Shown here: piece after piece, positions 7,462 to 27,796 of the stretch
How positions within the stretch are numbered: the first letter of the stretch is position 1
How the letters are laid out: the number at the start of each line of letters is the position of its first letter
NCBI RefSeq assembly: GCF_007559335.1
Contig: NZ_VMBG01000002.1
Location: forward strand, 798,501 to 862,500
Origin: Rariglobus hedericola
GTDB taxonomy: Bacteria > Verrucomicrobiota > Verrucomicrobiia > Opitutales > Opitutaceae
DNA length: 64,000 nt
Direction of reading: 5' to 3'
Program-made: the position numbers and the translations under genes
The notes under the pieces: generated by a model
The model's database searches: none
Seen by the model: only the letters and a program-made list of their open reading frames with translations
What the model was told of the DNA's origin: nothing

Positions 7462-10293
7462 GTGAAATCCTGCGGCTACAAATCGTGGTGCGTAGCGGCG
7501 GCTTATGTCGTGTTGCATGTGGTCGCGCATCTGTCGGCGCAGTGGTTTGAGGTGTCGCCGGGAATTTCGCTCTGGTATGTGCCGGGCGGGCTGGCGCTGG
7601 CCTTGGTGACGTTACTTGGGCCGCGTTATATGCCGCTGGTATTTGCGGCAAATTTCGTGACAGCGTGGCTTCCGACGACGGTCGCGTGGTGGATGGTGTG
7701 GTTTTTTCCGCTGCTGATCACCTTGGGTTATGGTGCGGCGGGCGTGCTGGTGCGCCGGCATTTGGGCGGAAAACTGCTGCCCGGCACGCCAAGGGAAACG
7801 CTGGGCTTTGTGCTCGTGGCCGGCTTGGCTCCGTTGGTCGTCGCGGTGATCGGCACGGCGGTGTATTATGTGAAGTCCAGCTTGGGGCAGGCTCCGTTCG
7901 GTGCGGACTTCTGGCCCTCGGTGATGAGTTGGTGGATCGGCGACACGAGCGGTATTCTTACGGTGGTGCCGGTGATCATGGTCTTCGTGGCTCCGTGGCT
8001 GGCGGGGGAGAAACCGGCGGTCGATCTGCGGCGGATGAATGCGCGGACGATCACTGCAGCGGTGGCACGTGCGTTGGTGCTCATGGGCACGATCGCGATC
8101 GTGGTGGGGTTGCCGGTCCTGCGCGATCATGACGCTTTCTACATTTGTTTTCTACCGCTGATTTGGATCTGCGTGCACCACGGTCTGCCCGGAGCCACGC
8201 TGGCCACGCTGCTTATCATGATGGTGGGCTTGGTGAGCATGCGGATGGCGGAGACGACGGTGGGATTTGCCCACGTGTTTCTTTTGTTTGAACTGGCGGT
8301 ATCGAGCGTGGGGCTCGGGCTGGGCACGATGGTGACGCGGCGCAACGAGGCGGAGCGCAAGCTCGCCGCCGCCGGCGCGAAAATGGACCGGGTTATTTCC
8401 GGCGCGCAACTCGGCCTGTGGGATCTGAATCTGGTGACCGGTGCGGTGGAGATCAACGAGCGGTATGCAGACATGATCGGATATGAGGCGGCGGAGCTGT
8501 TTCCGTTTCGCGAACGCTGGCCGGAGTTCATTCATGCCGAGGACCGCCTGCGCGTGGAAAACGCGATGATGACGCACCTCGAAGGACGCTCGGAGTTATT
8601 TGAGGTGGAGTTTCGCTTGCGCAAAAAAGACGGGCATTGGTGCTGGTTGCATTCGCGCGGTTCGATTGTGAAGCGGAGTGCGTCCGGCATGCCGCTGCAA
8701 GTTTCCGGCACGCAAGTCGACATCACCGCCCGCCGTCGCGTGCAGGCCGAAGTGGGGCGCCTGCTCCGCATCATCGAAGCGACGCCCGATCTCATCGTGA
8801 CCGCGGATGCGCAAGGCCGCGTGATCTACATGAACGAGGCGTTGCTCAAAGTCTGTGGCCAGTGCGACCGGGAGGGTGCGGGCAAAAACCTGCGCGATCT
8901 CCTCGCGGGCGAGGCGGCGACGCGTTTACTGGGCGAGGCGTTTCCCGCGGCGCTGGCCGCGGGCAGCTGGCATGGCGAGGCGACGATCGTGGACGCGGCG
9001 GGACGTTCGATTCCCACGTCGCAAGTCGTGCTCGCGCATCGTGACGAAGAGGATGATTCGTTCAGCTTTTCCGTGGTCATGCGTGATCTCTCCGATCAGC
9101 GGAGGGCGGAAACTGAACGCCGCCAACGCGACCGCGAACTGCTCCAGCTGCAGAAAGCCGAAAGCCTCGGCGTCATGGCTGGCGGCATCGCGCATGATTT
9201 CAACAACCTGCTCACCTCGGTGATGGGGCATGCGAATCTCGCTACGGTTGAACTTCCGCCGGGGGCACCGGCCTTGATGCATCTCGCGAAGATCGAGCAA
9301 GCGGCCACGTGCGCGGCCGCGCTTTGCCAGCAGATGCTGGCTTATGCGGGACGGAATCCGGTGTCGTTTTCAGAGATTGATCTCAACCAGCTCGTCGACG
9401 AGGCGAGCGGGTTGCTCGGTCCGAACATCGGTGGGAAAGTTGACGTGCGTCTCGATCTCGCGAAGCCCTTGTCGCCGATTCTCGCGGCGGGCACGCAGAT
9501 GCAGCAAGTGGTGATGAACCTCGTGCTCAACGCGGCCGAGGCGATCGGCACGGGCAACGAAGGCCGCGTGACGGTGCGGACGGGTGATTTCGAGTTGAGC
9601 GAGGCGGAGCTGGGACGGCAGTTTCCGGGACACATGGCGGCGGCGGGTGCGTATGTCGTGCTCGAAGTGGAAGACACGGGTTGCGGTATGTCGGTCGAGA
9701 CGCGTGCGCGGATTTTTGAGCCGTTTTTTACCACGAAATTCACGGGTCAAGGCCTGGGCCTCGCGGCTGTAGCCGGTGTGGTGAAGTCGCACCGTGGTGC
9801 GATTGCGGTGCGCAGTTCACCCGGCGCAGGGACGATCTTCCGCGTGGCCTTCCCCTCGCTGGCCAAAAAATCGGCACCGGTGATCATCCGTTACGAAGCG
9901 TTACCCGATACGTGGAAAGGCACCGGCACGATTCTCGTGGTGGACGACGATCACATCATCAGCGAGGTCACCGCGCATATTCTGCGGAGCTTTGGTTTTG
10001 CCACGCTGACGGCGGGCGATGGCCGCGAGGCGGTCGAGGTGTTTGGCCAGCATTCAGCTCATCTGGCCGGTGTGTTACTCGACCTCACCATGCCGGTGAT
10101 GGACGGGTTCGCGGCGCACGCGGAGATGCATCGAATCAATCCCTCGGTGCCCGTGATTCTGATGAGTGGCTTCTCGGAAAAACTCGAACATCTGCCGCCC
10201 GAGGCGATCCATCCGGCGGGCGTGCTGGCCAAGCCTTTTAATCGCAAACAACTCCGCGAACGCATCGCCTCGGTGATCCCGCAAGGCGGTTAG
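7462..10293 (+). CDS. MASE1-PAS-PAS hybrid sensor histidine kinase with C-terminal receiver
   Basis: The start is uncertain: GTG at 7462 gives an N-terminus beginning MKSCGYKSW, and the frame also opens with GTG at 7432. From 7462 the product is 943 residues. Order of parts: about eight hydrophobic segments forming a MASE1 sensory domain (residues about 8-290, with the WYVPGGLALAL and WWIGDTSGILTVVP signatures); a PAS/PAC domain (about 310-430); a second PAS domain (about 435-550); HisKA with the phospho-acceptor in GGIAHDFNN (His578); HATPase with N-box VVMNLVLNAAEAI, G1 DTGCGM, F-box FEPFFTTK and G2 GQGLGLAAV; and a receiver domain with VVDDDH, acceptor Asp874 in LLDLTMPVMDG, and KPF. It autophosphorylates in response to an unknown signal. 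No separate response-regulator gene is adjacent in the same orientation, so the partner is unknown. Confidence 0.93.
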   Translation: MKSCGYKSWCVAAAYVVLHVVAHLSAQWFEVSPGISLWYVPGGLALALVTLLGPRYMPLVFAANFVTAWLPTTVAWWMVWFFPLLITLGYGAAGVLVRRHLGGKLLPGTPRETLGFVLVAGLAPLVVAVIGTAVYYVKSSLGQAPFGADFWPSVMSWWIGDTSGILTVVPVIMVFVAPWLAGEKPAVDLRRMNARTITAAVARALVLMGTIAIVVGLPVLRDHDAFYICFLPLIWICVHHGLPGATLATLLIMMVGLVSMRMAETTVGFAHVFLLFELAVSSVGLGLGTMVTRRNEAERKLAAAGAKMDRVISGAQLGLWDLNLVTGAVEINERYADMIGYEAAELFPFRERWPEFIHAEDRLRVENAMMTHLEGRSELFEVEFRLRKKDGHWCWLHSRGSIVKRSASGMPLQVSGTQVDITARRRVQAEVGRLLRIIEATPDLIVTADAQGRVIYMNEALLKVCGQCDREGAGKNLRDLLAGEAATRLLGEAFPAALAAGSWHGEATIVDAAGRSIPTSQVVLAHRDEEDDSFSFSVVMRDLSDQRRAETERRQRDRELLQLQKAESLGVMAGGIAHDFNNLLTSVMGHANLATVELPPGAPALMHLAKIEQAATCAAALCQQMLAYAGRNPVSFSEIDLNQLVDEASGLLGPNIGGKVDVRLDLAKPLSPILAAGTQMQQVVMNLVLNAAEAIGTGNEGRVTVRTGDFELSEAELGRQFPGHMAAAGAYVVLEVEDTGCGMSVETRARIFEPFFTTKFTGQGLGLAAVAGVVKSHRGAIAVRSSPGAGTIFRVAFPSLAKKSAPVIIRYEALPDTWKGTGTILVVDDDHIISEVTAHILRSFGFATLTAGDGREAVEVFGQHSAHLAGVLLDLTMPVMDGFAAHAEMHRINPSVPVILMSGFSEKLEHLPPEAIHPAGVLAKPFNRKQLRERIASVIPQGG

Positions 10294-10383: not shown

Positions 10384-11514
10384 TTACGAGGCTTCGAGTG
10401 AGCGGTAGAGCGGGGCGAGTTTGCCGCGGCTGGTAATGCCGAGCTTGCGGAAAATGTTGCGCAGATGAGTGCGCACGGTGCTTTCGCTCACGCTGAGCTT
10501 GCGCACGATCTCGGCGTTGTTGTCACCGGCGGCGGCGAGGCGGGCGACTTCACGCTCGCTGGTGGTGAGCTTGGAGAGTTTTTCGAGCACACGACCGGCC
10601 TCGGGCGTATCGGAGGGAGGCGGTGAAAATTGGATGACAAAGGACGGCTGCAGAGAACGGCCTGGCACGGGCTCGATCAATTGCACGGTGGCCTGAAAAC
10701 CGGTTTCCGTGTCATGATTCAGAAGCCGGATGTGTTGCAGACTGGCGAGCGTGTGGGTCTGCACGGCGCCCTGCCAGGCGGTCTTGAGTTCATTGCACGC
10801 GGCCAGCAAATCGGCGGGGAGTTTCTTGGAAACATCCGTCTTGAACACACGGGATGACTGCAAACCGTGACGCCATGCGGATATGGTTTCGCGGGCCGCG
10901 ACATTGGAGTAGTTAATAGCGAGATCCCAATCCACCCCGAGCATGGGAATGGGCAGGGAATGCACGGTGTGTTCGAGCGACGTGTGCGCGGCGGCACGTT
11001 TTTCGGAGGCGAGCAAACGCTCGACCGCGGCGTTAGCCAAGGGATGAAGCAGACGTAGCACGCCCATCTCCTCATCGGTAATATCGCCCTGCGCTTCGGT
11101 GCGGATGAGTGACAGCTGGCCGATGAACTCGCCTGACGACGACCAGAAGATCATGCCTGCCGAATACAACCATCCTTCGGGCTTCATGAATTCTTCGTAA
11201 AAAGGGAGGCCGGGTAGCGCTGCAAGCGGCAGGCCGTCGCTCATGCGCAGAGTGGTGACGCCGGGGTTGCGGGCGAGGTGGTCGGCGAGGGGTGCGACGG
11301 CATTCAGCCGCACAAAGTAAGTGTCGGGATCAGGCACCGGCAGGGTGGTGCGCAGGAAAACCGGCATGGTGCCGAGGCAAGGTAACCCGATGAGCACGTG
11401 ATAGACAGGCATTGCCGACCGCAGCAGTTGATTGGCTGCCTGCCACAACTCCTCGGGCGTGAGGGCGCGTTGCAAAGCGATGAGGGCGGTGTGGGTGTTT
11501 TCTGAATACGGCAT
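10384..11514 (-). CDS. LuxR-type transcriptional regulator with N-terminal sensory region
   Basis: 376 residues from the ATG at 11514; an in-frame start at 11547 would add 11 residues. The C-terminal 60 residues are a GerE/LuxR helix-turn-helix: LTTSEREVARLAAAGDNN, then EIVRKLSVSESTVRTHLRNI and FRKLGI. No receiver domain is present. The N-terminal 300 residues look like a GAF-type fold followed by a PAS-like segment (SLPIPMLGVDWDLAINYSN), so it probably senses a ligand directly. It is divergently oriented from the Ala/Lys-repeat operon at 11,681, and the intergenic region holds a perfect 22-bp palindrome. That arrangement makes it the likely regulator of itself and the operon, which is inference. 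Confidence 0.88.
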   Translation of the reverse strand: MPYSENTHTALIALQRALTPEELWQAANQLLRSAMPVYHVLIGLPCLGTMPVFLRTTLPVPDPDTYFVRLNAVAPLADHLARNPGVTTLRMSDGLPLAALPGLPFYEEFMKPEGWLYSAGMIFWSSSGEFIGQLSLIRTEAQGDITDEEMGVLRLLHPLANAAVERLLASEKRAAAHTSLEHTVHSLPIPMLGVDWDLAINYSNVAARETISAWRHGLQSSRVFKTDVSKKLPADLLAACNELKTAWQGAVQTHTLASLQHIRLLNHDTETGFQATVQLIEPVPGRSLQPSFVIQFSPPPSDTPEAGRVLEKLSKLTTSEREVARLAAAGDNNAEIVRKLSVSESTVRTHLRNIFRKLGITSRGKLAPLYRSLEAS

Positions 11515-11573
11515 GCGGCGAGGGTGGTGGCTTTCAGCACGGAGCACGCCGTGATCGACGCAAACTCAAAGCA

Positions 11574-11595
11574 ATATCGTCGGATCCGACGATAT
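11574..11595. promoter_or_regulatory. Perfect 22-bp palindrome between a LuxR-type gene and a divergent operon
   Basis: The half-site ATATCGTCGGA is followed directly by its exact reverse complement with no spacer. It lies 59 bases upstream of the regulator start (11514) and 85 bases upstream of the first repeat-protein gene (11681). A dyad of 18-22 bp is the usual shape of a LuxR-family operator. It is not followed by a T-tract and sits between two divergent starts, so it is not a terminator. Confidence 0.6.
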
Positions 11596-11680
11596 GCGGT
11601 GCCGGTAACAATCGCTATGATGCCGGCTTTCTCGTCCCTCCCCGCCCGGCGGCGTTCTCTGTAACCGCAAAATTTTCTCT

Positions 11681-13453
11681 ATGAAACCTACCCGCAGAGC
11701 CTTTTCGTTTTTGTTCGCACTGGGAGCAGTGGCCATGGCTGGCGTGGCCTTCGCGCAGGCACCGAATATTCCCAAGCAACCTCCGTCGGATGCTGCCGTG
11801 AAGAAGGCCGAGGCCGCTCAAAAATCCGCCGAGAAAGCGGAAGCCGCCAAGAAGGCTGCCGATAAAGCCGCCGCCGCGAGCGCCGCCTCTGACAAAGCCG
11901 AGGTGGCCAAGAAAGCCGCCGACAAAGCGGATGAAGCGTCGAAAGCGGCTGCGAAGGCCGCGGCTGCGCAGAGAGCGGCGGCCGCTGCTGAAGCCGCTCA
12001 GCGCACCATCCAGGCTCCGCCCAAGGAAGTGAAAGTCAAAGACGTGAAGGTGCCGGTGACGCCGCCGCCTGCCGTGGAGCGCGTGGTGGTTACTCCGAAG
12101 ATTCCAGTCGCCGCCAAGGTCGAGGTGCCGGCGGTAAAATTGATCAATCAGGACATCATCAACGCCCGCGCCGACAACGCGCCGCGCGAACCGGGCAAAG
12201 GGCCCAAGGCGGATATCCCCGGGATTGATCGCGACGCCGCTGCCAAGAAATCCGACAGCCTCAGTGCGGTGGTGGCTGGTTCGAAAGACCGGAACGCCAC
12301 GCTCGCGGATCGGTTTAACGACACCACGAGCAACGAGCAGGCCGCCGCAAATGCCGCGACCGGCGCACTGCAAGACGACCGCACGCGACGTCCCGCGTTT
12401 GACCAAGGTTTTGGCGACAAGCCCACGTTCACCCAAGATCAGGTCAACGATGTCAAAGACGCGTCCAACCCCATGGGCAGTCTCACCGGCGGCGGATTGC
12501 GCGGCGGTGTGGCGGACTCCGCCCGCAAGGATGACGGAGTGACCAGCATCGCCGAGCAGGGACGCGGTGCGATCAGCGATGGCGCGCTCGGCTCCTCATC
12601 GGGAGCGACGGTGAATCAATCCGGAGATGTCGAGGCCGTCACCAAGGCACCTCCGGGGAGCTCCAAGAGTTTTTGGCAAAAACTCGCGGGTGTCTTCACC
12701 GGCCAGTCGTCATTGAGCGGCCAGACCACCAACAATGGCGCCGCGCTCAACCAAGCCATCAACGAAATCGATGGAAAGGGAACGCCCGCGCCCGCCGGTC
12801 CCGCCGCCGGCGTTGAACCGGCTCCGCCCAAGGGCCCGGCCACCACGTCGTCTTCCGATGGTCGCAATGTCGTGGTAACCGATGCGGACGGCACGAAAAA
12901 CGTTTATGTGGATGGTAAGAAGGTGGGAGTCATCGAGCCTCCGTCCACGCCAGCGTCCACGCCCTCGGCCGGTCGTCCGGCCGAGCCCGTCACGCCGCTC
13001 AAATACGATATCGTCAACACCTCGACGGCCACGGCGCAGCTCCGCCAATCCAAGCTCGGCAAGGGAGAGGGCGTCACCAATCCCGATCGCAACGGCGAAA
13101 CCAATACGACCTCTGAGGCGTCGCGCGCCGCGACCTTGCAGGTGATCGAAGGCCAGGGCGTCGGCCGGCTCGGCCAGCCCGTGGGCGGCGGAAATCTGAA
13201 TGATCAAGGCGGTCGCGCGGGCAACGTGTTCACGGGTTCAAACGGTGCGGGCGCGATTAATCCCGGTGGTGATACGGTGATCACCACGGGCGGCATCGAA
13301 CAAAACCCCGGCGATGTTTTTAACACCGGCCCCGGTCCCGACCAACAGCTGCGCGCTCCGGGCTCTTCGTCGAGTTCGACCGAGCCGGCGGCGTCAGACT
13401 CCACGCAAACTTCGACGTCTTCCTCCTCAGACGATTCCAGCGATAAAAAATGA
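11681..13453 (+). CDS. Secreted Ala/Lys-repeat protein, first of a tandem pair, unknown function
   Basis: 590 residues. A clear signal peptide ends at VAFA before QAPNIPKQPP. Residues about 33-107 are a low-complexity Ala/Lys/Glu heptad-like array (KAEAAQKSAEKAEAAKKAA), likely a rigid helix resembling the TolA stalk in composition but with no transmembrane anchor. The rest is Pro/Gly/Ser/Asp-rich and largely disordered, with one beta-like module near NVVVTDADGTKNVYVDGKKV and a Ser/Asp-rich tail. There is no PEP-CTERM, lipobox or enzyme motif. The next gene, a longer relative with the same mature N-terminus, overlaps by the four bases ATGA. I do not recognise the family. Periplasmic or extracellular structural roles are both possible. 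Confidence 0.8.
   Translation: MKPTRRAFSFLFALGAVAMAGVAFAQAPNIPKQPPSDAAVKKAEAAQKSAEKAEAAKKAADKAAAASAASDKAEVAKKAADKADEASKAAAKAAAAQRAAAAAEAAQRTIQAPPKEVKVKDVKVPVTPPPAVERVVVTPKIPVAAKVEVPAVKLINQDIINARADNAPREPGKGPKADIPGIDRDAAAKKSDSLSAVVAGSKDRNATLADRFNDTTSNEQAAANAATGALQDDRTRRPAFDQGFGDKPTFTQDQVNDVKDASNPMGSLTGGGLRGGVADSARKDDGVTSIAEQGRGAISDGALGSSSGATVNQSGDVEAVTKAPPGSSKSFWQKLAGVFTGQSSLSGQTTNNGAALNQAINEIDGKGTPAPAGPAAGVEPAPPKGPATTSSSDGRNVVVTDADGTKNVYVDGKKVGVIEPPSTPASTPSAGRPAEPVTPLKYDIVNTSTATAQLRQSKLGKGEGVTNPDRNGETNTTSEASRAATLQVIEGQGVGRLGQPVGGGNLNDQGGRAGNVFTGSNGAGAINPGGDTVITTGGIEQNPGDVFNTGPGPDQQLRAPGSSSSSTEPAASDSTQTSTSSSSDDSSDKK
11777..12010 (+). repeat. Ala/Lys heptad-like coding repeat in the first repeat protein
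   Basis: Irregular short repeats of GCC, AAG and GAG codons encode runs such as AEKAEAAKKAADKAAAAS. The array begins in a segment that is nearly identical at DNA level to the start of the next gene's array, which indicates duplication. Confidence 0.75.
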
Positions 13454-16020
13454 AAACCCGACGCCGCTTTTTTTCCATTCTGTGCACGGTGGGAGCGCTC
13501 ACTTGGCCACTCGATGCCGCCTTTGCGCAGGTGCCCAACATCCCCAAGCAACCTCCGTCTGATGCTGCCGTGAAGAATGCCGAGGCCGCGCAAAAAGCGT
13601 CTGAAAAAGCCGAGGCGGCGAAGAAGGCTTCTGAAAAAGCAGCCGCTGCCAGCGCTTCGGCCGAAAAGGCGTCCGCTGCAGCCGCCAAAGCGGACGCAGT
13701 CAAAAAGTCATCGGATAAAGCCGCCGCTGCGAGTGCCGCGGCCGAGAAGGCCGAGGCAGCCCAAAAGCTGAGTGCCAAAGCGCAAAAATCCGCCGACAAA
13801 GCGGAAGCCGCCAGTGTCGTTGCGGACAAGGCGGCGGCCGCTCAGAAGTCGGCTGATAAAGCAGCGGCTGCGCAAAAAAGCTCCGCTCAGGCAGACGCCG
13901 CTCAAAAAGCCGCGGCCAAAGCGGAGGCTGCCCGCAAAGCATCCGATAAAGCTGCGTCAACGGCAGCGACCGAAAAGGCGGCCGTGCGCCAGGCTGCGGT
14001 TGAAAAATTAACCACCATCAACACGGCGACCGCCCAGGCGGACGCCGCGCGCAAAGCCTCGCAGAACGCCGCGAAAATTTCTTCCACCGCGACGGTTCCG
14101 ACCGCTGCGACGGATGTGACGCGCATTCGCCTGCTTAATCAGCCCGCGCCCGAGACGAAGGGCGGCGATGACAAAAAGACGCCCGATTTAACCGTGACGG
14201 GAGAGCCGCGTAATCCGATCGCTGATCGTAAAGCTCGCGAAGAGGCCGCGCGCTCCGTGCGTGTCCCCGAGGTTGCAGCGGCCGCTCCCGCTCCGACGGC
14301 GGCTGACGAAATCCGCTTAACGAAGGACATCGTGCGCGATGGCCTGGCCGATCTGGAGGTCGCACCGGAAGTCGCGAAAAAACTGGCCGATGATTTTGTC
14401 GATCCGGACAAAGCCCCGGCTACCCGTGTCCGCGTGGAAGAACTCGCCAACACCTCCTCCGATCTGCAACTCGTCTCGGTTCCCGAGGCGACTCGCCGGA
14501 AGATTATCGACGAAGTCAGTCGCAGCGCCGATCCGACTGCCACCGCCAACGAGAAAGTGGGCGAGGCCGCGACCGAGGAAGTGTTCGGAAAAGACGTGGC
14601 GGCTTTGGTGCCCGTCGACAAACGCGGCAAGTTTCGCGAGGTGTTTCAAAACCTCGCCGATCTCCGCTCGGGTTTGGAAACCATCGGCGCTTCGCAGGAC
14701 GATCCGGAAGTGATCGAAGCGGTTAAAGAAGGTGCGGCGAAAGGGGTCACTACGCGTGAAGAAACCCGCGCCATTTTTGAGGGTGCCGGTCAGAAAGTGC
14801 TGGATCGCCAGGGGTTCTCGCCCGCGAAGGTTGGCGAGGGTTTTGGCGCGCGTCTCGATCGCATTGCTGCGGATCAGAAAGTCGAAGTGGAGCGACTGAA
14901 GCGCCAGGCGAATTTGGATAAATCCGTGGTGCGGGCGGGTGCGGTCAATTCGAGGGCGCAAGCGGGTGCGGCCAACGCTTCCCAAGCGCGCTCCGTCGCG
15001 GGCAATGTGGCGCAGGCGGGTAATTTTACGGTTACCGGCGGTGATGGTGGTGGAGTGAGCGCAGGGCTTGAATCGACATTTGGGCGAAACCCGAAGGCGT
15101 CCCAAGTCGCTTCGTCTGGGGGCAAATTACGCGGCGATGGACATGGCGTCGGCAATGATGCCGCCAAGCCGGGTGGCGCCCCCGGCAGCTCCGGCAGTGG
15201 TGCCGGTTCCGGTGGTAACGGTGGTGGCAATGGCGGTGGTGCCGGCGCGGGCTCGGGTTCAGGCTCCGGCACGGGTGAAGGCGGAGGCGGCGGTGGTGCA
15301 GGTGGCGGCGGCGGAGCTGGAGGAGGCGGTGGTGGTGGTGGCGAGGGCGGCGGCGGCTCGGGTAAGAGCGATGATAAAAAAGACGGCGAAGGCGGTGGCG
15401 ATAGTGACGGCGGCACCGGCTCCACCGACAGCCACGACAAGGACAACATCGATCTCAGCGGCGATGGCATGACTTTTGAAACGAACCCCGATGAAGCGGC
15501 GAAAACCATCGGTTCCACCACCATCAATCCGCTCGACGACGGCGGTCGGAACCCCATGGCGCTCTCGGAAAAAACCGGCGGTCGCCTGGGCGGTGCCGAA
15601 GCACGGCGCCAACAACGTGCGCTGCAACTCGCGGGTTCCGGCGGTGGCGCCGGCGGGCCGAATCCCGATGGTGTGAACACAACCCCGACTTTGATGACGC
15701 CCGAAGAAGAGGCCAACGCGGCTCGCCTGATCGGCATGAAAACCGGCGGCGGCGTTACAAATCCGAACCCGAACAAAACGGGCGGCATGGCCGTCACCGA
15801 TCGCGATCTGAAAGAGCTTCATCTGCGCGGTAACGGCGGCGCGGCGGGACCGACCGACACGACGGCACCCGCACCGCCGCAAGATCCCAACAGCCCTGTG
15901 CCCGGACTCGCTCCCGGCCCCGCGCCGACGGGCGGCACGCGCATCAACGGAGTCCAGGCACCGGCGGTGCAGGTGGACCGAATCGATGTGAGCGGCCAGA
16001 TCCGCGAAAACACCCAATGA
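13450..16020 (+). CDS. Secreted Ala/Lys- and Gly-repeat protein, second of the tandem pair
   Basis: 856 residues, starting in the ATGA overlap with the upstream gene. A signal peptide ends at AAFA before QVPNIPKQPPSDAAVKNAEA, which matches the mature start of the first protein almost residue for residue. The Ala/Lys array is longer here (about residues 33-205). A helical globular-looking region (about 285-480, with LTKDIVRDGLADLEVAPEV and VDKRGKFREVFQNLADLRSG) follows and is absent from the first protein. Residues about 573-640 are nearly all Gly, Ala and Ser, and the C-terminus is Pro/Gly-rich and ends with VDRIDVSGQIRENTQ. There is no sorting signal or membrane segment after the leader. Its neighbours are an outer-membrane barrel and a PEP-CTERM protein. 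Function unknown. Confidence 0.82.
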   Translation: MKTRRRFFSILCTVGALTWPLDAAFAQVPNIPKQPPSDAAVKNAEAAQKASEKAEAAKKASEKAAAASASAEKASAAAAKADAVKKSSDKAAAASAAAEKAEAAQKLSAKAQKSADKAEAASVVADKAAAAQKSADKAAAAQKSSAQADAAQKAAAKAEAARKASDKAASTAATEKAAVRQAAVEKLTTINTATAQADAARKASQNAAKISSTATVPTAATDVTRIRLLNQPAPETKGGDDKKTPDLTVTGEPRNPIADRKAREEAARSVRVPEVAAAAPAPTAADEIRLTKDIVRDGLADLEVAPEVAKKLADDFVDPDKAPATRVRVEELANTSSDLQLVSVPEATRRKIIDEVSRSADPTATANEKVGEAATEEVFGKDVAALVPVDKRGKFREVFQNLADLRSGLETIGASQDDPEVIEAVKEGAAKGVTTREETRAIFEGAGQKVLDRQGFSPAKVGEGFGARLDRIAADQKVEVERLKRQANLDKSVVRAGAVNSRAQAGAANASQARSVAGNVAQAGNFTVTGGDGGGVSAGLESTFGRNPKASQVASSGGKLRGDGHGVGNDAAKPGGAPGSSGSGAGSGGNGGGNGGGAGAGSGSGSGTGEGGGGGGAGGGGGAGGGGGGGGEGGGGSGKSDDKKDGEGGGDSDGGTGSTDSHDKDNIDLSGDGMTFETNPDEAAKTIGSTTINPLDDGGRNPMALSEKTGGRLGGAEARRQQRALQLAGSGGGAGGPNPDGVNTTPTLMTPEEEANAARLIGMKTGGGVTNPNPNKTGGMAVTDRDLKELHLRGNGGAAGPTDTTAPAPPQDPNSPVPGLAPGPAPTGGTRINGVQAPAVQVDRIDVSGQIRENTQ
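13546..14065 (+). repeat. Long Ala/Lys coding repeat in the second repeat protein
   Basis: About 170 residues of imperfect 7- and 11-residue units (AAQKSADKA, KAEAAKKASEKAAAAS) written with alternating synonymous codons. Frames +2 and +3 stay open and yield artificial Lys/Arg-rich products because of the biased composition. Confidence 0.75.
15166..15366 (+). repeat. Gly-rich low-complexity coding segment
   Basis: A run of GGT, GGC, GGA and GCC codons encodes about 65 residues that are almost entirely Gly with Ala and Ser. It separates the helical middle of the second repeat protein from its C-terminal part and is probably a flexible linker. Confidence 0.8.
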
Positions 16021-16072
16021 CCCCTCGTTCCTTCATTCGACGCGCACTTTCTTCACTCCTTTTTTCGACCCT

Positions 16073-16978
16073 ATGAAATATCTGTCTGTTCTCCTGTTAG
16101 CCCTCCCGTTGTGCGCCGTGGCGCAGCCGTCACCGGCCGCGCTTGAAGCGATCGGTCGTCAGGACCCCACGGGAAGCGGCACATTTCACCGCATCGGCAT
16201 GTTGCGCGAGCAGGAGAACACCGTCTCCCGCCTTCAACAGATCACGGACAAACTGAGCGGACAGGTGCGTGCCAACACCATGCTCTTCGCGTCGGATAAT
16301 ATCTTCAATACGCCCAACAACCGGGAGTCCGACAGCCAGCTGGCCGAGTTTCTCGGTGCCAATCTTCGCGTGACGTTTAACGACGCGCTCAAACTCAACA
16401 GCAGCTATGACGCCGCTTTTTTTCGTCACAACAAGGACGCGAACAGCGGAAATGATTTCGATACGAGCACGTTTCGCCAGCAGCTTACTTACGAGACATT
16501 TATTCTGAACAACAAGGCGTCCGTGGGCATTCCGCTCTCGTGGCAATACTCGGAAGTTTACCGCACCGGCGGCGGCGATCCGCTTGCGCAAACCTGGACC
16601 TATTCCAGCGGTGTGGAGTTCTCGTGGTTTCCCAACAGCCGCGTGTTTCCCACGTTTTCCTACAACTACTTTTTGTCCGATCCCAAGACGGGCTCGGGTA
16701 AAAACAAACACGACTTCAACCTCGGCGTGACCTTGATTCCGTTTCAAGGGAAGCGCTTCTACGTCATCCCCTCGGTGCAATACAGCTACGAGGATTTCCG
16801 TAAGAGCAGTCGCACGGATAAGGCCTGGACGCCTACGCTGACCACGAGCTGGTCGCCGCTGACGTTCTTCGCGGTCGACGCGGTCGGCAGCTACACGGAT
16901 TCCGCGTCCAATGTGGGCACGTCCGAGTTCGAAGCCTTCACGGCCACGCTCTTCGCCCGCCTGTTTTGGAACTGGTAG
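16073..16978 (+). CDS. Outer-membrane beta-barrel protein of the repeat-protein operon
   Basis: 301 residues with a signal peptide (MKYLSVLLLALPLCAVAQ). A short helical segment (RIGMLREQENTVSRLQQITDKL) precedes repeated amphipathic beta strands with aromatic girdles: LNSSYDAAFFRHNKD, FRQQLTYETFILNNKASVGI, FPTFSYNYFLSD, HDFNLGVTLIPF, FYVIPSVQYSYEDF. The chain ends in TLFARLFWNW, a typical aromatic C-terminal strand recognised by the BAM complex. It starts 52 bases after the second Ala/Lys-repeat gene on the same strand. The barrel may anchor or export the two repeat proteins, which is inference from gene order. No named family is recognised. Confidence 0.8.
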   Translation: MKYLSVLLLALPLCAVAQPSPAALEAIGRQDPTGSGTFHRIGMLREQENTVSRLQQITDKLSGQVRANTMLFASDNIFNTPNNRESDSQLAEFLGANLRVTFNDALKLNSSYDAAFFRHNKDANSGNDFDTSTFRQQLTYETFILNNKASVGIPLSWQYSEVYRTGGGDPLAQTWTYSSGVEFSWFPNSRVFPTFSYNYFLSDPKTGSGKNKHDFNLGVTLIPFQGKRFYVIPSVQYSYEDFRKSSRTDKAWTPTLTTSWSPLTFFAVDAVGSYTDSASNVGTSEFEAFTATLFARLFWNW

Positions 16979-16990
16979 TCCGCTCTTTTT

Positions 16991-17875
16991 ATGAATCTCC
17001 ATTTTAATTCCCGGATTTTATGCCGATGCCTGCCCGCGCTCGGCGGTTTGCTGGTGGTGTCCGCGCTATTTACGGCGGAAGCGTCCGCTCAAGTTTACGT
17101 GCAGACGCACAACCTGCCGCAGCAAACGGGTGCGACGGTGGCCTCGCTCGAGTATTCGCATGCGGAGGTGAGCGAGGACCTTAAGAACTACCGGTTCAAT
17201 CAGGCCGAGGGCGTGGCGCGCATCGGGCATCTCGGCGTGTTTGCCGAGTCGGAGATCCGTGGTGAATGGAATACCGGCACGCTGGCACTGGCGGGTTTCC
17301 AGGACACGTTGACGATCAATGCGGCGGGGCTCACCGGCATGACGGGTTATTTCACCGCGCGGATGCGCGTGAGCGGCGTGTTGCTGGGCGATGCTAGCTA
17401 CAACGGGACGATCTATACCGGCTATGTTGAAACCAAGTTCTCCGCTTTGCTGGGTGGAAACGGCAGCTACTACACGAATCTTAGCGGCGACTATCGACGG
17501 AATTTCGAAGGCGATGGATTCGCCACGTCGGGAGACCTGCCCGGGCTGATGGAGGTGGAGATATCGTTTATCTTTGGCACGCCGTTTTTGTTGGAGGGGC
17601 AGTTGAAGGTGGATACCTATGCGCAAGGAACTTTGAACGTTGCGAATGTCTGGGCGCTGTCGCGCGCCGAGTTCGGCCACACGGCTTACGTCGAGGGAAT
17701 CGACGAGATATTCACGGAGGATGACGAAGCGGTCAGCGGGTTCACGATCACGAGTCTTTCGGGGGCGGACTACATCGAGGGCTTTGAAAATGCCGCCATT
17801 CCCGAGCCGGCGACGGGGTCTGCGTTGGCGGGCGCCGTGGCATTGATGGCCGTTCTGGTGCGGCGCAGGCGCTAG
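16991..17875 (+). CDS. PEP-CTERM sorting-domain surface protein
   Basis: 294 residues, 12 bases after the barrel gene. The N-terminal signal peptide ends near AEASAQ. The middle is a beta-rich, Gly/Asn/Thr-rich extracellular region without known catalytic motifs. The C-terminus carries the full tripartite PEP-CTERM signal: IPEPA, a hydrophobic helix (SALAGAVALMAVLV) and a basic RRRR tail, which is processed by an exosortase at the inner membrane before surface delivery. No exosortase gene lies in this window. Likely the last gene of the operon starting at 11,681. Confidence 0.88.
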   Translation: MNLHFNSRILCRCLPALGGLLVVSALFTAEASAQVYVQTHNLPQQTGATVASLEYSHAEVSEDLKNYRFNQAEGVARIGHLGVFAESEIRGEWNTGTLALAGFQDTLTINAAGLTGMTGYFTARMRVSGVLLGDASYNGTIYTGYVETKFSALLGGNGSYYTNLSGDYRRNFEGDGFATSGDLPGLMEVEISFIFGTPFLLEGQLKVDTYAQGTLNVANVWALSRAEFGHTAYVEGIDEIFTEDDEAVSGFTITSLSGADYIEGFENAAIPEPATGSALAGAVALMAVLVRRRR

Positions 17876-20278: not shown

Positions 20279-22216
20279 CTAGCGGTGACGGCGGCGGATC
20301 ACCGCGAAGGTGAGGATGATCATACCCGCAAGCAGCGCGCAGGTGGAGGGCTCGGGGACGGCGGAGGCGGTGAGGAGGAATTGATTTCCGGCCTGCGAGA
20401 ACGTGTATCTGTAGCCGGCGATGACGGTGCCGAGTTCGAAGGACGTTGCACCGATGCTGGATAGCGTGGCGCCGGTGGCGTCGATCAGGGTGTAGGTGCC
20501 GGCCGTGAAGCCTCCGGAGTCGGTGAGGTTTACGGTGATGGCTCCGGAGCCGGGGCCGGTGAGCGTGCCGCCGGAGACGATGAGGGTATTAATCTGAGAA
20601 CCGAGGGAGTAGGAGAGGATGGCGTCTGTGTGGAGGATGAGGCCGTTGCTGAACGAGAGCACCCCGCCGGCATCGGGAGCGAGCGTGCCTCCGGTGTGGA
20701 CGGTGGTGAGGCCGCTGATCAAGTCATTGCCCGCGAGGGTTCCGCCGCTGTTGACGGTGACCTGACCGGTGCCGAGCGAGGAGGAACCGGCGAAGGCTCC
20801 GCGGGCGGCGAGGGTGCCGCCGTTGATGATCGTGCCGTGGGTGAAGGTGCTCGCGGCGGTGAGGACATTGTAGCCGGCGGTGTTGATGACCGTGGCATTG
20901 CCTTTAATCAGCACACCGGTGCCATCGGCAGTGCCGTCCCGCGTCAGGTGGAAGGGTGATGCGGCCGTCGCCGTGGTGTTGAGTTGAACGGTGCCGGTGC
21001 CGTCGAGTCCGGTCGTTATCTTGTCGGTGTCGAGCACGCCGCCCGCGGCCGCCGGTGCGGTGGCGGTGGCACCGATGTTGAGTGTGCCGGTCGAACCGTA
21101 GTAAGTGCCGAGAACCACTTTGCTGGCGCGGATCAAGGCGCCGTCGGAAACGGTCAGGATGCTGTCGCGCGCACTGGCGAAGTCACCGAGGGCAATCTCT
21201 TCGGAATGGGACCAAGTCGAGCCGGCACCGGTCACCGCTACCGTGCTCGCGCTGATCTGGGCGAACACCGCACTCATCGATCCCCCGTCGCGCAGGATCA
21301 GGCCGCCGCCGCCATCGATGACGGTGCCGCCGGTGTAGTTGCTGGTGCCGGTGAGCGTAAGGATGCCGGAGCCTGCTTTCCAGATGCTGCCATAATTGGT
21401 GATCGAGCCTGCGAAAGTGGTGTCTCGGTCATTGTCTATCGTGAGGGTGATGGCCTGATTGCCGAAAACGAGGGAGCCTGCACCCGAAAGGTTGCGAAGG
21501 GTCTGCTCGAAGCCGAAGACGCGGAGCGTGGCGCCGGCGGCGATGTTCACGCTTTCGGAGGAGGCGATGCTGCCGGTGTCGGCGATCCACACGGTGCCGG
21601 AAAGAAGGGTGGTGGCGCCGGAGTAAGTGTTTGCCCCGGCGAGGATGATGTCGCCGATGGGATTGGCACCTTCGTCAAAGGTGAGGGCGTGCGCACCGCT
21701 GATGATGCCGGAAATCGTCGAGTTGGCCCGGGGACTGGAATCCGGATTGGCGGAGGTGATCGTGATGTCGCCGGAGAGGATGACCGCGCCGGAGAGATTG
21801 GTGTAGCGGCCGAGAGTGAAGTCACCGTTGAGGATGACGTCATTTGAAAGGGTGCGACCGGCACCTTCGGCACGGACGGTGCCGCCGTTGATGGTGAGGG
21901 TGCCGGAGCCGAGGGCGTTGTCGGCGCCGAGGCCGAGGGTGCCGGCATTCAGCACGGTGCCGCCGGAGTAGGTGTTGGTCGCGGTGAGGGTGAGTTTGCC
22001 GTCGCCGTCTTTTACGACGGAGCCGGTGCCGCTGAGGACGCCGCTTTGCGTGGCTGAACCCGTGACGATGCCGAAGGTGAGCGGCGAGTTCGGCGAGGAG
22101 GTGTCGTAGGCGGTGGAGTTCGTCTGCTGGTCGTCGAGCGTGACCGTGGTCTGGGACCGCAGTGACAATGCGGCCAAGGGCAGGAGTGCGAGTGGGAGGA
22201 AGCGGGATGGGCGCAT
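20279..22216 (-). CDS. Autotransporter-associated beta-strand repeat protein with PEP-CTERM signal
   Basis: The ATG at 22216 gives 645 residues with a signal peptide MRPSRFLPLALLPLAALSLRSQ; the same frame extends upstream to 22447 but without signal character. The mature part consists of parallel beta-helix repeats of the AAR (PATR) type, for example KDGDGKLTLTATNTYSGGTV, EGANPIGDIILAGANTYSG, ILTLTGTSNYTGGT. The C-terminus shows VPEPS, a hydrophobic helix and a basic RRRH tail, a regular PEP-CTERM sorting signal, rather than an autotransporter barrel. Such proteins are surface-attached and of unknown function. It is divergent from the 7TMR-DISM kinase starting at 22,349, which may sense or control it. 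Confidence 0.88.
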   Translation of the reverse strand: MRPSRFLPLALLPLAALSLRSQTTVTLDDQQTNSTAYDTSSPNSPLTFGIVTGSATQSGVLSGTGSVVKDGDGKLTLTATNTYSGGTVLNAGTLGLGADNALGSGTLTINGGTVRAEGAGRTLSNDVILNGDFTLGRYTNLSGAVILSGDITITSANPDSSPRANSTISGIISGAHALTFDEGANPIGDIILAGANTYSGATTLLSGTVWIADTGSIASSESVNIAAGATLRVFGFEQTLRNLSGAGSLVFGNQAITLTIDNDRDTTFAGSITNYGSIWKAGSGILTLTGTSNYTGGTVIDGGGGLILRDGGSMSAVFAQISASTVAVTGAGSTWSHSEEIALGDFASARDSILTVSDGALIRASKVVLGTYYGSTGTLNIGATATAPAAAGGVLDTDKITTGLDGTGTVQLNTTATAASPFHLTRDGTADGTGVLIKGNATVINTAGYNVLTAASTFTHGTIINGGTLAARGAFAGSSSLGTGQVTVNSGGTLAGNDLISGLTTVHTGGTLAPDAGGVLSFSNGLILHTDAILSYSLGSQINTLIVSGGTLTGPGSGAITVNLTDSGGFTAGTYTLIDATGATLSSIGATSFELGTVIAGYRYTFSQAGNQFLLTASAVPEPSTCALLAGMIILTFAVIRRRHR

Positions 22217-22348
22217 GACGGAGGATCGTTGCGGGTAGTCCGGTGCGGGGTGGCGGAACGGGCAACGGGGCAAACCTCGTAGTTCTACCAGCTTTGAGTG
22301 GGAGAGGGGGCTTGCGGTGGCGGGGGGACGTGGGGTGGATTGACGAGA

Positions 22349-24349
22349 GTGAATTTTCCACAACTTAGCTCCCGACTTGGTCTTTTCGCGGGACTGGTGT
22401 GCGTGATGGCGGGGCTCGGCTGGCTGGTGTTTGGCGTGGCGGGCCATCGCGACGGCATGGAAATCCTGCCGAATAAGGCCGGGTCCACCGTTGAGTGGAT
22501 GAACGATCCGGGGGCACGACTGAGCTTTGAGGAAGTGGTCGCCACCTCACCGGCGGAATGGCGTGCGTGGGATGGCTTGGACTACCTTCGCGCGGTGCAG
22601 GGCGATGCGGTGTGGGTTCGTGCGACGGTGCGCAATCCGGGTGGGCGGGCGTTGCAGGGCGTGCTCGCGGACACCGAGTATTTCCCCGACCAGATTGATT
22701 TTTGGATACAGGACGACGCGGGAGCTTGGCAGCCGATGCGTTCGGGCGAGGCGGCGGACTCGAAAGTGAAACCGCTCTGGGGACGCACGGCGGCGTTTAC
22801 GCTGACGGTGCCGGCGGGCGGCGAACGGGTGGCCTACCTGAGGGCGGAGGATTATTTTAACGTGTATCTGCGGCCGCGGTGGTGGCCGGAGGTCGGGGAG
22901 TTTTTCGCGGAGCAAGTGCGCGATACGCTGGCGGAGGCGATTTGCTACGGCGGGGTGCTGGCGCTGTTGCTCTACAACGGAGTGTTGTGGGCGCGGCTGC
23001 GGTTTCCCGACACCGGGTGGTATGTGCTCTACGCGGGGACGATGGCGGGGTTTAATTTTATATCCAACGGTGGAGCGGCGCTGCTGGGCTTCGCAGTGGG
23101 ATCGCCCTGGAAGGAAATGCTGGTGACGGGGTTGTTGTCGGCGAGCGGACTTTTTCTGGTGCAGTTTGCCCGGGTGTTTTTGGGAACCGCCGCGCGGGTG
23201 CCCGGAACGGATCGCGTGTTGCGCGGACTGCGTTGGTTGCTGGCGGTGTTGCTGGCCGGGGTGGCGATGATGCCGTGGATGTCCGGTCTGCATTGGCTCG
23301 GAGCCGTGGTGATTGCGGTGAGCGCGACGCATCTCGTTTTGCTGGCGGTGGCGGTGGCCGGCTGGCGGGCGGGCGTGAGTCATGCGCGCTTCTTTGTGGC
23401 GGCCTTCGGGTTGTTGCTGGCCGGAGCGGCCCCGGCGGTGGTGACCTGGCTGAACCAGGATATCCTTTCCTGGGCGGCGATGTGCCTGCTGGCCGGTTCG
23501 ACGCTGGAGATGTTGGTGCTCTCGTTCGCGGTGGCCGACCGGTTTGCACGCATCCAGCGTGAACGTGCGGAAGCGCAGACGAAGTTGATCGACGAGACTG
23601 AACAACGCCGCGCCATCCAGGAAGCCTACGCGGATGAACTCGAAGTCGAAGTGCGTGAACGCACGCGCGAGCTGGTCGAGGCCAACGCCGATAAGGACCG
23701 GATGATCGCGGTGATCGGCCACGACCTGCGCAGTCCGTTGACCGCGCTCACCCGCACGGCGGAACACCTGGGCGCGGGCGAAACGGGGCAGACGCCGCAG
23801 GGGCGCTTCATCGGCGACGCGGCGCAGCTGGGGAGGCAGGTATTGTTGCTGATCGAGGATCTGGTGCTGTGGGCGCGTTTGCGCGCGGGCTCGAAGTTTC
23901 TCGTGGCGCAACCGGTGACGGGCTTGGTCTCGCCGGTGCTGGCGTTGTATCGTTCGCAGGCGGATCTCGCAGGGCTGGAGCTGCGCATGGTGGACGTGCC
24001 GGACGGTTTGAAGGCGACGACCGATCTGGTGCTTGCCCAGACGTTGATCCGCAACCTCGTGGCCAATGCGCTGCGTTATGCGCGATCGCGGGTGCACGTG
24101 ACCGCGACCGGCGTGCCGGACGGGGTGCGGATCACGGTGCGTGACGACGGTCCGGGGTTGCCGCCGGTGGTGGCGGCGCGGCTGGCATCCGATGCGGACG
24201 TGCCGGACTGGGCGGGCAACGGACTGGGGTTGCGACTGTGCCTGGAGATCGCGCGTGCGCTGGACGCGGGGCTGAGCGCAAAGCCGGTCGAAGGAGGCGG
24301 GACGGAATTCTCGTTCACGCTGCTGGCTGCTCCGGATAAATTAAAATAA
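22349..24349 (+). CDS. 7TMR-DISM receptor histidine kinase (HisKA type)
   Basis: I favour the GTG at 22349, just before the hydrophobic leader LGLFAGLVCVMAGLGWLVF; the frame opens with GTG at 22298. About 666 residues. Parts in order: an N-terminal anchor; a periplasmic 7TMR-DISMED2-like beta domain (about 40-185, with GDAVWVRATVRNP and VAYLRAEDYFNVYLRP); seven membrane helices of the 7TMR-DISM type (about 190-405); a coiled linker; HisKA with phospho-acceptor His458 in VIGHDLRSPL; and HATPase with N-box LIRNLVANALRYA, G1 DDGPGLP and G2 GNGLGLRLC. The DISMED2 domain is thought to bind carbohydrates or similar ligands. The NarL-type regulator 11 bases downstream is the obvious partner. The receptor half is paralogous to the LytS-type protein at 28,666-30,513. 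Confidence 0.9.
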   Translation: MNFPQLSSRLGLFAGLVCVMAGLGWLVFGVAGHRDGMEILPNKAGSTVEWMNDPGARLSFEEVVATSPAEWRAWDGLDYLRAVQGDAVWVRATVRNPGGRALQGVLADTEYFPDQIDFWIQDDAGAWQPMRSGEAADSKVKPLWGRTAAFTLTVPAGGERVAYLRAEDYFNVYLRPRWWPEVGEFFAEQVRDTLAEAICYGGVLALLLYNGVLWARLRFPDTGWYVLYAGTMAGFNFISNGGAALLGFAVGSPWKEMLVTGLLSASGLFLVQFARVFLGTAARVPGTDRVLRGLRWLLAVLLAGVAMMPWMSGLHWLGAVVIAVSATHLVLLAVAVAGWRAGVSHARFFVAAFGLLLAGAAPAVVTWLNQDILSWAAMCLLAGSTLEMLVLSFAVADRFARIQRERAEAQTKLIDETEQRRAIQEAYADELEVEVRERTRELVEANADKDRMIAVIGHDLRSPLTALTRTAEHLGAGETGQTPQGRFIGDAAQLGRQVLLLIEDLVLWARLRAGSKFLVAQPVTGLVSPVLALYRSQADLAGLELRMVDVPDGLKATTDLVLAQTLIRNLVANALRYARSRVHVTATGVPDGVRITVRDDGPGLPPVVAARLASDADVPDWAGNGLGLRLCLEIARALDAGLSAKPVEGGGTEFSFTLLAAPDKLK

Positions 24350-25040: not shown

Positions 25041-27764
25041 TCAGCGACGGCGGCGTCGGACGGCGGCGAAGACAAGAGTGGCTGCACCGAAAAGCTGGGC
25101 GACCGTGGTGGACTCGGGGATGACGGAGGCGGTGAGCACCAGCGTGCTGCCGGAGAACGCCAGCGCGTAATTATAGCCGGAAAGCGTGGAGCCCAGGACG
25201 AAGTCGGAGAGATCGAAACTGCTCAGGGTGGCGTTGGAGAAGTTAACGAGTGTGTAGGTGCCGGTGACAAAACCACCGGAGTCGGCGAGATTGATCGTGA
25301 TACCACCGGCGACCGCGGAGCCGGTTAGCGTGCCGCTGGAAACGCGGATCAGGTCGCTGGCCGTGCCGAGATCGAAATCGAGGATCGCCCCAGTGTTGAG
25401 CGAGAGACCGTTGGCAAACGTGAGCGTGCCCGAGGAAACGCCGGGAGCGAGGCGGGCTCCGGACTGGACGGTAGTTAATCCGCCAATACTGCCCGTTCCA
25501 CCGAGGGTGGAGTTGAGCTTCACGGTGACGGCCGTGTTGGCGATCGAACCGTTGACGAAAAGTTTGCCGGCATCGACGGACGTCGCCCCGGTGTAGGTGT
25601 TGGTGCCGGAGAGTGTGAGCGTGCCGGAACCCGCCTTGGTGAGTTTGCCGTTGGTTCCGCTGATAACGCCACCGAAGGATGAGTTCAGGTTGTTGTTGGT
25701 GTTGCCGATGGTGAGCGTATTGCTGCCGAGCGTGACGGTGCCGCCGGTGCCGTTGAGCGCACCCAGTGTCGGGACCGAGGCAATGGCGAGCGTGGCTCCT
25801 GAGGAGAGCGTGACGTTGGCGAGCGAGCCAAGTGCGGTGGCGTTGTTGAGATTGGTGACGCCGGCTTCGAGGTTGATGGCTGTGCCGTTGACCAGACTGG
25901 TGGCGGCCGAGGCGAGGGTGAGAGTGCCGGTGCCTTTTTTGGTGAGTGAACGCGCGGTGCCGTGGTCGTTGAGCGCACCGAGTGTGGTAACACCGATGCC
26001 GGAGCCGTTGACGTTGGTGAGGTCAAGTGTGGCGTTACCCGTCAGCGAAGTTGAGCCGAAGGTGACGGAGCCAGTCTGGTTGGTGCTGAAGTTAGAACCG
26101 CGGGCGATGGTCAAGGTATGGCTTCCGAGAGAAAGCGTGCCGAGGACATGAGTGATGCCGTTGCCGCTGCTGCTGGCGCGGGATGGCGTGAGCGTGGAAT
26201 TGGCGGTGACGGTGACGGCGCGGTTGAAGGTCGTCGCGGCGTTGTTGGCGAGACGTAGATTGCCGCCGGCGAGAGTGACGCTGCCGGAAGCATTTCCCAA
26301 GTTCGTGTTGTTGCTGACGGAGAGCGTTCCGCTGTTGATGCGAGTGCCGCCGGTGTAGGTATTGTCCGCAGAAAGCGTGAGCGTGTTCGAGCCGGTTTGG
26401 ACGACGGAGCCGTCGCCGGAAATGATACCGGCAAAGGCGAGGTTGTTGGAGCGGTTAAAGGCGAGGGCGGCTCCAGTGGCGATGGCGACGTTGCCGGTGA
26501 TCGAGCCGTCGCCGCTGCCGTTGCCGATCTGAACGGTGCCGGCGTTGATGAAAGTGCCGCCGGTGTAGGTATTGTCTGCGGTGAGGATGAGCGTGCCGGC
26601 GCCGGTTTTGGTGAGCGTGCCGACGTCCGTGGCGTCGCCGTAATACTGGGTGATCGGTGTGTTGAAGATGAGATTGTCTGTGAAGTTAAAGATCATGGCG
26701 CCCCGGTTGTTGACCATGCCTGCGGCTATCATGCCGGCGGTGCCGCCGGTGCCGATCGTCAGGGTGGCGCCGGGATCAAAATAGAGGCTTCCGTCGCCGG
26801 CGCTACCGATTCTAAGGGTGCCGCCATCGGCCACCGTAATGCTGTTGCCGGTAGCGATAGGGAAATAGGTGTCGGCGAGGGTGAATTGCGAGCCGGTGTC
26901 GCGCACGGTGATTGATCCGGTGCCGGCAGAGTGGGCGCCGACCGCGGGGCTGGCACCGGCGTAACCTACATTGATGAAACCAACGGAGACCGTGGCACCT
27001 TGTTCAACCGTGACCGATCCATGACTGCCGCCGTCGTAGGCCATTTGCAGCCTGCCGACTTCCCAAGTGGACCCGGCACCGGATACGAGCACCGCGCCGC
27101 TTCCCCAATAACCGACGGCGACGATGCTATTAATGGCGGAGGCACCGTCGCTGATGGTGAGCGTGCCGCTGCCGATGCCGCGAGTAGAGTAATCGCCGGA
27201 GCCGAGTGTGAGGCCCCAGTATCCGCCGGTCGCGGTATCGACCAAATGCGAACCCGCACCGGTGACGAGAATGTTACCTTGATTTACAGTGCCATTATCA
27301 GCGCTGCCAACGGTGAAGCTGCTGGCCGTTAATCCGCCTCCCGCAGACACGGTGATGTGGTTGGCATCGCTGTTGGCGTTGAGCGACACGGCCTCGGTGA
27401 CGGTCCAGGATGAACCGATGCCGGTAACGAGGAAGCGACCGTCCGAGTTCAGCTGGATCTGGCTGCTGGAGCCAGTGCCGCCGTTTTCGACGGTGAGCGA
27501 GCCGGAGTTGGCAAAGCCGATTAATAGGGAGTGTGCGACGGCTCCCGTAGAGGCGACAACGGCGGAGTGGTCGTTGTAGATGAATACGTCGTCGTCCGCG
27601 GTCGGAAGTTGTCCGGAATACCAGTTGTCGTCGTCGAACCAACTGTTGCCGTCCACCGACTGGAAGATGCTGGCTTGGGCACTGAGATGAGGCGAAAGCG
27701 TCGTCAGTAGAATAAAAAGCGTGGCAACGCTGCGGCGGCGGGAAATGGTGGACGAAGATTTCAT
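25041..27764 (-). CDS. Large autotransporter-associated beta-strand repeat protein with degenerate PEP-CTERM tail
   Basis: I take the start at 27764, which gives MKSSSTISRRRS plus a hydrophobic signal ending LSAQA; the frame begins five codons earlier at 27779. About 907 residues. The N-terminal third has right-handed beta-helix repeats (SLTVENGGTGSSSQIQLNSD, GTLTISDGASAINSIVAVGY), and the rest has AAR repeats (GAGTLILTADNTYTGGTFI, GSGTLTLSGTNTYTGATSV). The tail is IPESTTVAQLFGAATLVFAA plus RRRRR: the architecture of PEP-CTERM, but the motif reads P-E-S instead of P-E-P. Three phased direct repeats lie upstream of the gene, next to the LytTR regulator gene. Surface protein, function unknown. 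Confidence 0.87.
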   Translation of the reverse strand: MKSSSTISRRRSVATLFILLTTLSPHLSAQASIFQSVDGNSWFDDDNWYSGQLPTADDDVFIYNDHSAVVASTGAVAHSLLIGFANSGSLTVENGGTGSSSQIQLNSDGRFLVTGIGSSWTVTEAVSLNANSDANHITVSAGGGLTASSFTVGSADNGTVNQGNILVTGAGSHLVDTATGGYWGLTLGSGDYSTRGIGSGTLTISDGASAINSIVAVGYWGSGAVLVSGAGSTWEVGRLQMAYDGGSHGSVTVEQGATVSVGFINVGYAGASPAVGAHSAGTGSITVRDTGSQFTLADTYFPIATGNSITVADGGTLRIGSAGDGSLYFDPGATLTIGTGGTAGMIAAGMVNNRGAMIFNFTDNLIFNTPITQYYGDATDVGTLTKTGAGTLILTADNTYTGGTFINAGTVQIGNGSGDGSITGNVAIATGAALAFNRSNNLAFAGIISGDGSVVQTGSNTLTLSADNTYTGGTRINSGTLSVSNNTNLGNASGSVTLAGGNLRLANNAATTFNRAVTVTANSTLTPSRASSSGNGITHVLGTLSLGSHTLTIARGSNFSTNQTGSVTFGSTSLTGNATLDLTNVNGSGIGVTTLGALNDHGTARSLTKKGTGTLTLASAATSLVNGTAINLEAGVTNLNNATALGSLANVTLSSGATLAIASVPTLGALNGTGGTVTLGSNTLTIGNTNNNLNSSFGGVISGTNGKLTKAGSGTLTLSGTNTYTGATSVDAGKLFVNGSIANTAVTVKLNSTLGGTGSIGGLTTVQSGARLAPGVSSGTLTFANGLSLNTGAILDFDLGTASDLIRVSSGTLTGSAVAGGITINLADSGGFVTGTYTLVNFSNATLSSFDLSDFVLGSTLSGYNYALAFSGSTLVLTASVIPESTTVAQLFGAATLVFAAVRRRRR

Positions 27765-27796
27765 GGTCGGTGTGGGCACAGAGGTTCCCGCCCACG

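Follow-up and report, generated by a model that had tools for sequence, protein, structure and literature searches.

We report a genuine, rare gene system of Verrucomicrobiota. Comparison of its loci shows a genetic coupling of a conserved, predicted outer-membrane barrel, which has an N-terminal motif, to Sec-type secreted proteins that share a leader and a basic rod and continue in exchangeable, largely disordered bodies. No published description of the system was found in the open-access papers searched. Our best explanation, offered tentatively, is that it might be a small envelope-display system, in which the barrel would export or anchor intrinsically disordered surface proteins known by their shared leader.

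Organization of the locus

The window, the whole stretch of 64,000 nucleotides analysed here, sits in contig C2 of the 4.15-Mb genome of Rariglobus hedericola. As an earlier sequence-only reading had claimed, four same-strand ORFs are present at 11681-17875, with a divergent gene of the GerE/LuxR type:

10384..11547, minus strand: LuxR-type regulator; C-terminal GerE domain (Pfam), N-terminal part unassigned
11572..11602, strand not applicable: conserved candidate operator block of 31 bp, a footprint across loci
11681..13453, plus strand: rep1, an ORF of 590 aa with signal peptide, leader, short Ala/Lys repeat, low-complexity body and a Ser-rich tail at the end
13450..16020, plus strand: rep2, an ORF of 856 aa with a homologue (P0002) in genome G016 and a C-terminal module also found in loci L050 and L051
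16073..16978, plus strand: putative outer-membrane beta-barrel of ~12 strands with a C-terminal aromatic residue; 13 homologues aligned
16991..17875, plus strand: PEP-CTERM-type secreted protein, a neighbour outside the conserved core

The rep1 and rep2 ORFs overlap by 4 nt (ATGA), a gap of ~52 nt separates rep2 from the barrel gene, and the PEP-CTERM gene follows the latter after 12 nt. Homologues with dN/dS values of 0.1-0.3 speak for the coding frames. Across the loci compared, the ratio is 0.05-0.18 for the barrel (0.18 for the gene of the window) and 0.1-0.4 for parts of rep2, some of the synonymous distances being near saturation; this indicates that both are under purifying selection. 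The earlier view that only the sorting tail belongs to a recognizable family holds for rep1, rep2 and the barrel, none of which reached a Pfam or NCBIfam cut-off or showed a POTRA/ShlB barrel or autotransporter domain in these databases; PHROGs, too, gave no match. The sorting tail itself is marginally under the cut-offs (15.9 bits versus 16 for TIGR02595; 15.3 versus 20.7 for PF07589).

Phyletic distribution and coupling of barrel and repeat proteins

Among 252 genomes of the family the barrel occurs in two, namely that of the window and G016, where a divergent LuxR gene (70% identical) is followed by a single rep2 homologue and the barrel. Since neither rep1 nor a PEP-CTERM gene adjoins the G016 locus, the conserved core comprises the regulator, rep2 and the barrel. 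When these two barrels were searched against 84,980 species genomes, four further loci (L049-L052) came up, all annotated as Verrucomicrobiaceae or Prosthecobacter and each encoding 1-3 secreted repeat proteins immediately downstream of the barrel. The barrel of G016 is 68% identical to that of the window, the full-length ones of L049-L051 ~53%. Plasmid records contained no barrel.

Repeat-protein homologues that lack the barrel would speak against the coupling. We therefore ran a five-row rep2 profile over three partly overlapping sets, of 388 genomes from the phylum, 252 from the family and 68 from the family of L050. It matched clearly in only five genomes, every one of which has the barrel adjacent, and this pairing spans two distant clades and four chromosomal contexts. 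We set aside weak matches in G126, G267, G072 and G010 (E 4e-4 to 8e-3), which lie in the low-complexity part and in some cases contain stops. The coupling thus stands in one direction, rep2-type proteins never being seen without the barrel, but not in the other: in eight Verrucomicrobiaceae a more diverged barrel, of 38-45% identity, stands without an adjacent repeat gene at a conserved site between FHA-like and flavin-reductase-like genes (assigned by reading), which suggests another or an older role of the barrel there. Given these barrel-only genomes and the restriction of rep2-type proteins to the side of a barrel, the latter is probably the older part of the system. In addition, G291 has a barrel match with E 1.5e-5 over 62 positions. 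An NADPH-dependent FMN-reductase-type gene lies near the G016 barrel (L005 5096-5716) and a similar one directly downstream of the barrel in the barrel-only Verrucomicrobiaceae loci L073-L080; this might be old synteny or chance.

Architecture of the repeat proteins

Both rep1 and rep2 open with a signal peptide and a common leader (13450-13560 in rep2; leader sequence AQVPNIPKQPPSDAAV), after which come 10-residue Ala/Lys repeats with 57% and 42% period-10 matches, respectively; a period of 10, not 7 or 11, rules out a canonical coiled coil. The two leaders share ~69% identity over 48 aa, with 152 nt at 80% DNA identity, but the bodies have no detectable similarity, so that the relatedness is limited to leader and repeat. 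Hence, of the pair of related secreted proteins with long Ala/Lys helices that had been proposed from the sequence, the signal peptides and the shared leader and repeat were borne out, whereas the bodies proved unrelated and the rep1 repeat short (~70 aa, up to about residue 108). On this comparison, rep1 is an additional copy of the leader carrying another body. A seeming similarity of that body to a 641-aa protein of L051 (14730-16655; blastp E 0.003) is at most suggestive and is not claimed, as 75 of 300 shuffles reach its score once the repeats are removed.

In rep2, the Ala/Lys stretch at residues 38-208 (13561-14073) is predicted as one helix with pLDDT ~60. It is followed by a predicted central helical domain (residues 225-480, 14122-14889, with pLDDT up to 79 over residues 284-480), a Gly-rich, disordered linker and a conserved C-terminal module (residues 693-856, 15526-16017). 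The central domain and the C-terminal module are 63% and 61% identical to those of P0002, the remainder much less so, and the C-terminal module shares 48% identity over 96 aa with the L050 and L051 proteins. The latter have Lys-Val-Pro repeats (KVPVVKTPVAPKIP) in place of the Ala/Lys repeats of the window; this change of repeat type between the clades, with the flanking ends conserved, is as expected of a mechanical spacer. Both types of stretch carry a basic charge of +2 to +10 per 50 residues; distally the proteins turn acidic or neutral. The repeat proteins as a group are of low complexity, almost Cys-free and of mixed charge, with Gly/Ser/Asp-rich bodies, and their signal peptides look cleavable by eye (an AFA|Q-like site). 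Paralogues of one locus have the same leader and repeat type with unlike bodies; rep1 and the 409-, 641- and 259-aa paralogue types are without the C-terminal module of rep2. The L050 repeat protein also gave sub-threshold TPR matches.

Apparent exchange of bodies behind a resident leader

A common 4.1-kb block, starting upstream of the barrel, ending at the rep2 stop codon and containing an upstream small gene, the barrel and rep2, is found at different chromosomal sites in L050 (9990-14096) and L051 (9942-14051). Identity between the two is 75-90% across barrel, leader and repeat, and then ~98-100% across the whole rep2 body, the jump falling just after the repeat. At the same site, L049 and L050 are 82-95% identical in barrel and leader, ~60% in the rep2 body and again 90% downstream. 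An identity jump at the end of the repeat points to bodies exchanged behind the resident leader and, as read from these alignments, indicates a recent exchange between L050 and L051.

No LuxR gene of the window's type was seen at the Verrucomicrobiaceae loci. Most of their repeat genes, as well as some peptide ORFs, are preceded by an element around GCACAAGTT (TTTTCCACTTTCCGCACAAGTTCC-N9-GCGCATCCAG), with sites at 11303 and 14881 in L049, at 11304, 14187 and 15022 in L050, and at 11275, 14642, 16771 and 17888 in L051; it is likely to be a common promoter or regulator site. The peptides encoded behind it are of 41-45 aa (MNFSLRLTIAA...LAAAATFAKHRAQAA).

The barrel and its N-terminal motif

The proposal of an outer-membrane barrel held up: the predicted product has a signal peptide, a C-terminal aromatic residue and ~12 amphipathic strand candidates, and sub-threshold matches to BBP2_2 (PF10082) occur in 7 of the 13 homologues aligned (alignment A6; best E 0.0017). 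An AlphaFold model of the barrel built on two sequences has pLDDT 33, and strand number and pore are read from the sequence alone. In the one homologue whose alignment was displayed, the BBP2_2 match falls close to the C-terminal strands; however, the best match scores 17.7 bits against a cut-off of 23.7, the window barrel has no match at E 1, and the barrel here has a conserved N-terminal motif and a repeat-protein partner.

This N-terminal periplasmic motif, GRQDPTGSGTFHRIGMLREQE (about 16145-16216), keeps 15-24 of its 24 positions where repeat proteins are present and 4-12 where none is adjacent, although its erosion in the barrel-only genomes may partly reflect the overall divergence of these barrels. 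It is a candidate site at which the repeat proteins might dock. Small secreted proteins of ~77-120 aa, with an Ala/Lys/Gln-rich tail, echo the motif and are encoded just upstream of the barrel in L051 (about 9947-10177), L073, L074, L077 and L078.

A LuxR-type regulator and its candidate operator

The LuxR-type gene matches Pfam GerE at 1.1e-14 (54.3 bits, cut-off 23.5); its wider family occurs in 69 of the 252 family genomes beside other neighbours. The stretch between it and rep1 contains a perfect palindrome of 22 bp, ATATCGTCGGATCCGACGATAT (11574-11595); G016 has 20 of the 22 bases in the corresponding position. The form ATCGTC-N6-GACGAT recurs in G187, there between a PEP-CTERM gene and the LuxR gene (52% identical) from which it diverges. 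It is present once per locus in these three loci and absent from 19 loci of more distant LuxR relatives (310 kb) and from shuffled window sequence. This phylogenetic footprint marks the palindrome as a candidate LuxR operator, and because it is conserved between the LuxR gene and the divergent gene, the regulator is probably dedicated, as had been supposed. The G187 arrangement thus resembles that of the window in regulator, operator form and divergent secreted protein, but what it would control (L029 4389-10709) is a ~2,000-aa PEP-CTERM protein with no other recognized domain and no recognized relation to rep1 or rep2.

Proposed display at the cell surface and its alternatives

The display system that we tentatively favor would operate as follows. 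LuxR would control the operon via the palindrome; the repeat proteins would cross into the periplasm by Sec and remain extended; the shared leader and repeat would act as an address recognized by the barrel, probably through its N-terminal motif; the rod would bridge periplasm and peptidoglycan; and the body would be threaded through the barrel or held at it and shown outside, where diversifying selection would favor the exchange of bodies. The barrel might thereby work like the amyloid exporter FapF, with one dedicated barrel serving several disordered substrates. The roles suggested in the earlier reading, stalks or fibres for the repeat proteins and exporter or anchor for the barrel, are likewise conjectural. 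Several observations are consistent with this: the invariable proximity of rep2-type genes to the barrel in two clades and four contexts, the block common to L050 and L051 at different sites, paralogues alike in leader and repeat and unrelated in body, the recombination point just behind the repeat, the swap of Ala/Lys for Lys-Val-Pro between conserved ends, the retention of the barrel motif where repeat proteins occur, the operator footprint and the precedent of FapF. Against it stand the eight genomes with a barrel and no adjacent repeat gene, a rep2 composition little like that of known amyloids, and the lack of any recognized FapD- or FapA-like protease or chaperone near the cluster.

FapF, a plugged barrel of 12 strands with a coiled coil at its N-terminus, exports unfolded substrates (PMC5557850). 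What the Fap system of Pseudomonas shares with the one described here is a dedicated barrel, here predicted to have ~12 strands, that bears an additional periplasmic segment at its N-terminus and is encoded alongside unfolded, repeat-bearing proteins secreted by Sec. However, the substrates here would consist of Ala/Lys or Lys/Val/Pro repeats joined to bodies that can be exchanged, and coiled coil and plug are those of FapF, the barrel here being known only as a sequence. A profile of the 13 barrels found no match at E up to 10 among PDB chains, which should include FapF, and neither a FapD C39 protease nor a FapA-like chaperone nor other fap genes were recognized among the ORFs that flank the cluster in the window and in G016 (some scanned with Pfam, the rest assessed by reading). 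On these comparisons the system does not appear to belong to Fap; it may work in a similar way without homology to FapF. A bolder form of the display explanation, namely a new class of Verrucomicrobiota outer-membrane machine in which one dedicated barrel reads leader and basic rod on several secreted proteins and presents horizontally exchanged bodies at the surface, the rod alternating between Ala/Lys helix and extended Lys-Val-Pro form with its function kept, seems to us unlikely.

The main rival of display is a periplasmic tether, a possibility that we regard as somewhat unlikely: the proteins would be TolA/TonB-like rods, with the basic repeat bound to peptidoglycan or the N-terminus anchored in a membrane, and the C-terminal module would dock on the N-terminal motif of the barrel, linking outer membrane and wall. 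The Ala/Lys helix of TolA and the Lys/Pro-rich stretch of TonB are two classic periplasm-spanning rod types, and the repeats resemble TolA domain II in one clade and the proline-rich region of TonB in the other. The tether is kept alive by such a swap of rods, which would suit a spacer across the periplasm just as well, and by the basic charge of the repeat region, the conservation of the rep2 C-terminal module in both clades and a barrel motif that follows the presence of rep2. On the other hand, rep1 and the three other paralogue types have no C-terminal module with which to dock, Pfam gave no match to TolA_C, TonB_C or OmpA-like peptidoglycan-binding domains, the signal peptides look cleavable, and several paralogues with differing bodies occur, an exchange of bodies being more typical of exposed proteins.

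We find it improbable that the cell instead releases the repeat proteins to form a polyelectrolyte matrix or adhesin outside it, with the barrel a general porin linked to them by chance. Their low-complexity, almost Cys-free, mixed-charge composition with Gly/Ser/Asp-rich bodies and the barrels standing alone in eight genomes agree with such a matrix; a co-occurrence in all five genomes across four contexts and the joint transfer of the 4.1-kb block do not.

How the outer envelope is built and linked in verrucomicrobia is poorly known, and the cluster offers a compact, testable module of one barrel, leader-sharing partners and an operator with a candidate regulator. It also constitutes a natural experiment, as a rod segment has changed its chemistry between flanking modules that stayed. 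Should the display explanation hold, leader and rod would serve as a tag addressing proteins to the surface, and the exchange of bodies would be a route of surface diversification.

The PEP-CTERM gene and further proteins of the window

The earlier inclusion of the PEP-CTERM protein in the system has to be dropped, for no such gene is found beside the G016 locus or in the mapped core of the Verrucomicrobiaceae loci L049-L051. A PEP-CTERM/exosortase surface operon of all four genes and LuxR, with this protein as surface component, is accordingly highly improbable in spite of the 12-nt spacing behind the barrel, the sorting-type tail and the PEP-CTERM protein seemingly driven by the related G187 regulator, the repeat proteins themselves being without a sorting tail. 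Further along the window, two minus-strand genes (20279-22447 and 25041-27779) encode proteins with passenger-associated repeats (PATR), the former with a PEP-CTERM-like tail at its end; they adjoin 7TMR-DISM histidine kinases and response regulators.
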